From: Candidatus Nanopelagicales bacterium
GTDB taxonomy: Bacteria > Actinomycetota > Actinomycetes > S36-B12
Assembly (NCBI GenBank): GCA_028687755.1
Contig: JAQTZL010000005.1
Span: 62,001-126,000 of the forward strand
Reading direction: 5' to 3'
Length of the DNA stretch: 64,000 nt
In this document: positions 60,785 through 61,876 of the stretch, in pieces
Numbering within the stretch: position 1 is the stretch's first letter
How the letters are laid out: each line of letters opens with the position of its first letter
The notes under the pieces: model-generated
Told to the model about the DNA's origin: nothing
The model's input: the letters and a program-made list of their open reading frames with translations, nothing else
Databases searched by the model: none
Program-made: the position numbers and the translations under genes

Positions 60785-61072
60785 TTAGCGGCCCAAATAA
60801 TTACGTGCAAGCATGGTGATCAACTGATCCACACTCATGCCACGCTTGTCTGCTTCATTCTTGAGAGCTTTGCGAATTGATTTGGGAACCTCAACGTTGA
60901 GTTCAACAAGTTTGTCGCGCTTAGGTCCAAGTAACGCATCCGATGTTGCACCAGTGCTCAACGGCGCGCGCTCCTCATGGTCGCGGGGCAAGGTTGGATG
61001 CCACACTGCATCTGATGCTTTGCCAAGAGCCGGGCGCGGAGTGGGATCGAAGGCAGGCTTGTCGGTACTCAT
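60785..61072 (-). CDS. Ribbon-helix-helix-like small partner of ParA
   Basis: A 95-residue protein. The first 50 residues are polar and Pro/Ala-rich, probably disordered. The last 45 (LVELNVEVPKSIRKALKNEA and KRGMSVDQLITMLARNYLGR) have a strand-helix-helix pattern like MetJ/Arc or CopG regulators. Its ATG overlaps the ParA stop (ATGA), so the two are co-translated. By analogy with partition systems it could be the DNA- or cargo-binding partner; no parS-like repeats are seen nearby. Confidence 0.75.
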   Translation of the reverse strand: MSTDKPAFDPTPRPALGKASDAVWHPTLPRDHEERAPLSTGATSDALLGPKRDKLVELNVEVPKSIRKALKNEADKRGMSVDQLITMLARNYLGR

Positions 61073-61851
61073 CGCGTTACCTCCGTTGAAAAACGAATCG
61101 GCATGATTTCGTTATAAAGCGCGTCAAAGATTTGTGCTAACTCAATTCCAGCCGGTGATTCCCACGCATGGATCGGCATACCTGCAGCCTCTGCTTGCTG
61201 GATTGCATTGCGTTCTGGAACAAGTGTTTGGCTGACGAGTGTTCCGTAGTTTGTGCGCAACTCTTCAATGCGGTGGCGTTGTTCTGCAACAGATGGCCGT
61301 GCCTTATTAATGATGATGGCCTCTGCCTTCATCAATGGGTTTGTTGAACTCCGGATAACTTCGACGGCTTCTAAAGCTTGTTCGGCGCCGCGAAGTGCGA
61401 AAAATCCAGGTTCGGTCACGATCAGTGCGCTGTCACTCGCGCTCAACGCATTGCGGGTGAGTTCGCCAAGGGAAGGAGGGCAATCAATGAGAACGCAGTC
61501 ATATGAATGCGGCAAGCTTGCCAATGCTGCGCGAAGCCGAAGTGATGAATGGCGACCCTCAACGGTGTTGCGATGTTCAAGGGAACGTTCAGAGGCAAGG
61601 ACATGAACGTTTTCGCCCCAAGGTGAAATATGGAGGGCATCGGAAGCAATACCTGGACGAGCGTCAGCAAGTACGTCGTTCACCGTGAAGGTCGGCTCAT
61701 CAACACGTAAGCCCATGCTTGCATTGGCCTGAGGGTCTAGGTCGATAACCAGAACTCGATGTCCTCGGTTCCAAGCAGCGCTGGCTAAACCCAATGTGAC
61801 AGATGTTTTGCCAACCCCGCCCTTCATGGAAACAACAGAGAAGGTCGGCAT
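61069..61851 (-). CDS. ParA/MinD-family ATPase (orphan)
   Basis: A 260-residue ParA-type ATPase. The deviant Walker A is MKGGVGKTSVTLG (with signature Lys), then VLVIDLDPQANASMGL, the switch VLIDCPPSLGELTRNAL and the late EPGFFALRGAEQ region. Such proteins position plasmids, chromosomes or protein complexes on the nucleoid. No parB, gid or rpmH gene is nearby, so it is not the chromosomal parA. It forms an operon with the ribbon-helix-helix gene. ATG 61851 (or 61860). Confidence 0.9.
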   Translation of the reverse strand: MPTFSVVSMKGGVGKTSVTLGLASAAWNRGHRVLVIDLDPQANASMGLRVDEPTFTVNDVLADARPGIASDALHISPWGENVHVLASERSLEHRNTVEGRHSSLRLRAALASLPHSYDCVLIDCPPSLGELTRNALSASDSALIVTEPGFFALRGAEQALEAVEVIRSSTNPLMKAEAIIINKARPSVAEQRHRIEELRTNYGTLVSQTLVPERNAIQQAEAAGMPIHAWESPAGIELAQIFDALYNEIMPIRFSTEVTR

Positions 61852-61876
61852 AGCCAGCAATCGTAGGGGTTGGTAG

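Follow-up and report, generated by a model that had tools for sequence, protein, structure and literature searches.

A chromosomal ParA ATPase and its ribbon-helix-helix partner in actinomycetes: an apparently undescribed variant of the plasmid ParA/ParG kind

The window analysed here (the whole 64,000-nucleotide stretch of DNA from a Candidatus Nanopelagicales bacterium) carries a ParA-type ATPase gene coupled to the gene of a small partner protein with a ribbon-helix-helix (RHH) end. The pair is a conserved, chromosomally encoded version of the plasmid ParA/ParG type and is apparently undescribed; searches of open-access literature listed no chromosomal ParA-RHH pair of actinobacteria. The partners form a conserved ParA partner family of actinomycetes which also appears to be undescribed and which is matched by no Pfam model above cut-off. 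The features of the locus are as follows.

61069..61851, minus strand: parA, ParA-type ATPase of 260 aa (Pfam AAA_31; ATG start)
60785..61072, minus strand: ParG-like partner of 95 aa (ORF overlapping parA by 4 bp; purifying selection)
61860..61865, minus strand: -10 box TACGAT, lying 14 nt ahead of the parA start codon (sequence; conserved spacing)
60992..61051, minus strand: N-terminal motif FDPTPRPALGKASDAVWHPT, partner residues 8-27 (conservation over 33 partners)
60929..60952, minus strand: middle motif GATSDALL, partner residues 41-48 (D45 invariant in 22 partners and at least 90% conserved in 33)
60788..60913, minus strand: RHH domain, partner residues 54-95 (AlphaFold model and VIA-align matches)
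60860..60883, minus strand: basic stripe of RHH helix 1, K64, R67, K68 and K71 (residue count across partners)

The gene pair and its chromosomal neighbourhood

The start of the partner gene and the stop of parA overlap by 4 bp within the sequence ATGA. The dN/dS values against the nearest orthologues, limited to the comparisons where dS could be computed, are 0.03-0.06 for ParA and 0.04-0.10 for the partner; such purifying selection on both genes excludes a chance pairing. The coupling of a ParA ATPase to a small partner, which was proposed in the original prediction, is thus confirmed, and the pair occurs beyond the source organism too. A ParA-based scan of public genomes yielded 22 close loci with 54-93% identity, mostly from Nanopelagicales or actinobacterial MAGs. 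One of them, L029, was left out, its sequence stopping within parA; in each of the other 21 the partner gene lies directly downstream of parA, and in 13 of these the overlap is 4 bp.

On a wider scale, the partner profile matched 85 of 148 genomes of the order and 62 of 394 in the class search; these tallies hold false positives (L136, L163, L173 and L174 are without a ParA-partner pair) and also miss some members, only part of the candidates having been scored in large genomes. The ParA profile matched 97 of 394 class genomes at E < 1e-45 and, at 1e-60, 3 of 246 genomes of a phylum sample, the source genome among them and all within the class; both tallies include a second ParA branch without the partner. 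The class loci chosen by ParA alone were without a recognisable partner in 16 cases out of 20, most of them representing a different ParA branch. This sister chromosomal branch (L175-L181 and L188-L194, with no recognisable partner) includes a Microbacterium record (L140) and is present as second copies in some relatives of the source organism.

A recurring gene order is found in several actinomycete families: dtxR-like, phr, ParA, partner, (MFS), pdxH, gltA, serC, where the neighbour names come from sequence recognition and not from a family search. Among 60 loci of this ParA type, 43 have phr immediately before ParA, and 46 contain one or more of pdxH, gltA and serC inside the stretch retrieved, some stretches being shortened by contig ends. 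Since the neighbour order is kept across the loci, the pair is inherited with the chromosome. The earlier description of a ParA with a small RHH partner in a layout resembling a positioning system is supported, and the conserved core synteny shows that the locus is not a plasmid. The neighbours themselves are housekeeping genes and name no cargo. Two loci (L182 and L183) have no partner and carry downstream of ParA a gene recognised by its sequence as a Nei-type DNA glycosylase. In most other loci a photolyase gene precedes ParA; this may be a DNA-repair link or a coincidence.

A promoter element is located at a conserved distance from parA. Of 59 loci, 27 have the pattern TANNNT at 12-14 nt ahead of the ParA start, as compared to 0-2 loci in other position bins; the relaxed form NANNNT occurs at the same position in 44, as compared to 1-9. 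By comparison with known actinobacterial promoters, this spacing of the -10 box suggests a leaderless mRNA starting at parA. Over 36 loci (after exclusion of those lacking a phr match or having a gap beyond the range of -50 to 400 nt), the phr-parA gap stays below 62 nt in 29, which leaves little space for an operator array.

The search for DNA sites was negative at this locus. No canonical parS (up to 2 mismatches) was found across the 64-kb window, while the identical scan detects two sites at the ParAB locus of oriC; the predicted absence of ParB and parS near the pair holds. Inverted repeats near the pair are no denser than elsewhere in the window, direct repeats near it are chance-like pairs only, and no centromere or operator repeats adjoin the pair at the near locus. 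No enriched palindromes were detected near the pair, with non-N word counts of at most 7 over 14 loci; only these counts were used because of N runs in one locus and possibly shortened shuffles. Significant hexamer repetition upstream was present in 1 of 59 chromosomal versus 5 of 14 plasmid loci.

The segment 54294-64000 of the window recurs without any base difference in another contig (C8) of the same assembly. The polyP kinase gene is doubled at the same offset, so the repeat at the window end probably extends over tens of kb; it is likely to be an assembly redundancy.

ParA and the partner protein

The ATPase matches Pfam AAA_31 with E 3.2e-36, and its fold is similar to that of Soj/ParA proteins (Z 27 to 25, ~245 residues aligned). 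The signature lysine K10, Walker A K15, D39 and Walker B D123 are invariant in the 22 orthologues. As Walker A occupies residues 10-16 of the 260-residue protein, there is no N-terminal helix-turn-helix extension. The source genome encodes additional ParAs at oriC (with ParB and parS, L091), at scpAB and beside a DEAD-box helicase gene.

The architecture of the partner, as derived from 33 diverse members, comprises a fixed N-terminal motif, a middle TSD element, a linker of variable length and the RHH end, with the total length varying from 80 to 257 aa. In the N-terminal motif R13, L16 and P26 are invariant among the 33 partners, and P12, A15, A19, D21 and H25 are conserved in at least 90%. 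Many linkers are rich in K, A and P; the mean linker charge is +4 over 50 partners, a count in which two rows (L120 and L129) were mis-parsed. Two relatives deviate from this scheme: one (L184:2909-4500, genome G161) keeps the N-terminal motif but has its RHH replaced by a long K/A-rich tail that resembles histone H1, and another (L187) has 64 residues.

The AlphaFold model of the window partner contains helices 64-77 and 81-93 with pLDDT of ~90. It aligns with the RHH proteins PutA, CopG, Arc, ParG and omega with the best Z of 4.1 over ~42 residues, a low value which is in keeping with the short domain. The strand is unassigned in the monomer model, presumably because the RHH sheet forms only in the dimer. 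Sequence searches were less informative: all RHH matches of the partner in Pfam are below cut-off, the Pfam ParG family matches 1 of the 33 partners (E 0.013) with nothing above cut-off in the member shown, the six matches in the PDB sequence search include no RHH protein, and the PHROGs search gave weak Arc-like matches only. The original prediction described a disordered N-terminus and an RHH-like end; the latter is supported by the model and its structural matches, and the N-terminus harbors a conserved motif which that description lacked. The motif presumably contacts ParA and would stimulate its ATPase activity. By analogy with the ParG tails and McdB N-termini, whose basic residues act on their own ATPases, the stimulating role may be assigned to R13. 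The literature consulted on such systems comprises PMC9178275, PMC12284271, PMC12204374, PMC8262871 and PMC7308502.

Plasmid relatives and the residue exchange in the RHH domain

ParA matches 729 plasmid records at 1e-15, the best of which are actinobacterial ParAs with an identity of 36-42%. A small ORF follows ParA in 14 of the 15 plasmid regions inspected, and one record annotates it as parG. An HP element is present within the first 45 residues in 9 of the 14 plasmid partners; 20,000 shuffles gave a mean of 1.4 and never as many as nine. The ParA tree puts 10 of the plasmid partners on the same side as the chromosomal pairs, and all of these except L202 carry the element; the 4 distant plasmid partners are without it. 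In this tree (80 rows, rooted at midpoint and with some long branches) the chromosomal ParAs cluster together (support 100/98) next to the plasmid type Ib ParAs; L140, a large Microbacterium replicon annotated as plasmid, falls inside the chromosomal group. The partner itself gave a single weak Nostoc match among plasmids and no match among the viral contigs searched, and a phage search with P0002 returned 32 records.

The pair thus shares several traits with the type Ib plasmid partition systems (TP228 ParF/ParG and pRSRe2287 parA/parG), namely a small ParA without an N-terminal DNA-binding domain and up to 42% identical, a downstream partner whose N-terminus is flexible and whose C-terminal part is an RHH, and the HP-containing N-terminal element found in 9/14 plasmid partners. 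In contrast to these systems, it sits in chromosomal core synteny and not on a plasmid or mobile replicon, has no upstream repeat region, has lost the Arc-like Q-N/S-R strand triad and has acquired a conserved basic stripe; in other families it also has a long variable linker.

RHH domains usually bind DNA, and the aligned strand positions 57, 59 and 61 face DNA in Arc-like proteins. The plasmid partners near the chromosomal group have Q, P or A at position 57, N, S or A at 59 and R at 61, and the window partner has E57, N59 and E61. Arg61 is found in 8/9 plasmid versus 9/52 chromosomal partners (Fisher p 6e-5, with rows that are not independent), Gln57 in 0/52 chromosomal partners, and at least one acidic residue at these three positions in 39/52 chromosomal versus 0/9 plasmid partners. 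In variability position 61 ranks first and position 59 third of 39; the strand residues differ even between close orthologues. The opposite pattern is seen in helix 1, where at least three of the four stripe positions are basic in 51/52 chromosomal versus 0/9 plasmid partners (43/44 chromosomal ones after removal of rows 80% alike); the plasmid set of nine partners is small, and the chromosomal count is biased upward because many rows were found by profiles trained on the partner family. The stripe residues sit on the helix face opposite to the hydrophobic one, and the 22 ParA-selected rows share P63, K64 and R67 without exception. As read from the sequences, the strand residues argue against sequence-specific DNA binding by the partner RHH, though loss of the triad is no proof of lost DNA binding, since non-Arc RHH proteins read DNA via other residues.

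Possible function and cargo

Our best explanation, which we hold tentatively, is that the pair is a chromosomally fixed descendant or sister of the actinobacterial plasmid type Ib pairs and works as a ParA-adaptor positioning system. ParA-ATP dimers would bind the nucleoid non-specifically. The partner would act as an RHH dimer whose two flexible N-terminal tails (RPALxKAxDAxxHP with the invariant R13) dock on ParA, and this docking would trigger ATP hydrolysis and release of ParA, resulting in a moving ParA gradient. The RHH body, deprived of the centromere-reading strand residues of the plasmid partners, would hold the cargo by the basic stripe of helix 1, and the proposed cargo type is an acidic or polyanionic body. 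The residue exchange seems to tip the balance towards a non-DNA body rather than DNA as the load. A more specific version is possible too, with rather more doubt: an ancestor of many actinomycetes would have taken the centromere-reading RHH protein of a plasmid partition system into its chromosome, where the strand that reads DNA decayed, the basic stripe of helix 1 became the conserved binding face and the protein ended up as a dimeric adaptor that no longer reads DNA. ParA would now use it to position a conserved cellular body other than a chromosome site, a PHA granule, a chemoreceptor array or a microcompartment. The adaptor reading draws on the coupling in all 21 loci, the N-terminal motif with R13, the core synteny, the chromosomal ParA group beside the plasmid type Ib ParAs, the intact ATPase motifs of ParA, the residue exchange and the lack of parS-like, palindrome or repeat clusters near the pair. 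Against the adaptor reading count the 16/20 ParA-only class loci without a partner as well as the basic linkers and the H1-like tail of L184, which suit DNA.

The same linkers and tail, together with the predicted RHH fold and the fact that the plasmid relatives partition DNA, are consistent with the main rival, a SegAB-like chromosome organizer, which is quite possible. The RHH and the basic linker would then bind dispersed or low-specificity sites and ParA would move or spread DNA beside ParABS. The archaeal segAB genes are reported to be chromosomal and overlapping (PMC12284271), as are those of the ParA-RHH pair here. However, SegB motif sites cluster around segAB according to the same source, and no enriched palindrome or repeat was detected near our pair in scans for generic palindromes and repeats. 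Besides, the strand residues vary among close orthologues, being acidic at 57 and 61 in the window protein. Gene neighbours are conserved here and variable at segAB, and the 50 VIA-align matches listed for the partner do not include SegB. It is unlikely that repression of transcription, at its own promoter or at neighbouring genes, is the main task of the partner, with ParA as a modulator. Such a role would fit the general abundance of RHH repressors and the promoter 14 nt before parA, and ParG is described as also repressing its own genes (PMC7308502); yet there is no conserved operator-like repeat near the start, the strand residues are unsuited to a conserved operator, and the conserved N-terminal motif shares an element with the plasmid ParA partners. 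The idea that the pair partitions a plasmid or an integrated mobile element draws on plasmid genes being its closest outside relatives and is highly improbable in view of the core synteny conserved across families and of a partner without a clear plasmid relative or viral-contig match; the same synteny led to rejection of the view that the locus as it now stands comes from a plasmid or mobile element.

Two further known systems were compared. The canonical ParABS differs in having ParB and parS, which are absent beside this ParA and were found at the oriC locus L091. McdAB resembles the pair in having ParA followed by a small partner with a charged disordered N-terminus. McdB is reported to have an invariant C-terminal tryptophan (PMC8262871); the partner here ends in an RHH, and its sole tryptophan is W24, none being C-terminal. 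Membership in McdAB was rejected on the lack of this tryptophan and on the absence of microcompartment genes from the source genome and from 36/43 pair-bearing genomes. The resemblance to McdAB-type systems proposed earlier is thus not supported as kinship, the nearest outside relatives being the actinobacterial plasmid type Ib (ParA/ParG-like) pairs.

Cargo candidates were assessed by gene presence per pair-bearing genome only, in 43 hand-picked genomes of at least 93% completeness with a partner-profile match or a ParA-partner locus, and 26 control genomes hand-picked from those without a ParA match in the class and phylum searches. Polyphosphate kinase is encoded in 43/43 genomes with the pair and, uninformatively, also in 25/26 without it. 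Glycogen branching enzyme is present in 41/43 pair-bearing genomes and absent in G066 and G170. Of the granules suggested originally, polyP is thus allowed by a co-occurrence which does not discriminate, and glycogen is weakened. Chemoreceptors as general cargo were rejected, their genes being in only 9/43 pair-bearing genomes, as were PHA granules as universal cargo (PHA synthase in 3/43). Microcompartments as universal cargo were likewise rejected, shell genes (PF00936) occurring in 7/43 and not in the source genome.

If the adaptor reading is true, a DNA segregation cassette can turn into a cargo-positioning system, and the exchange between strand and stripe residues offers sharp mutants for testing it.
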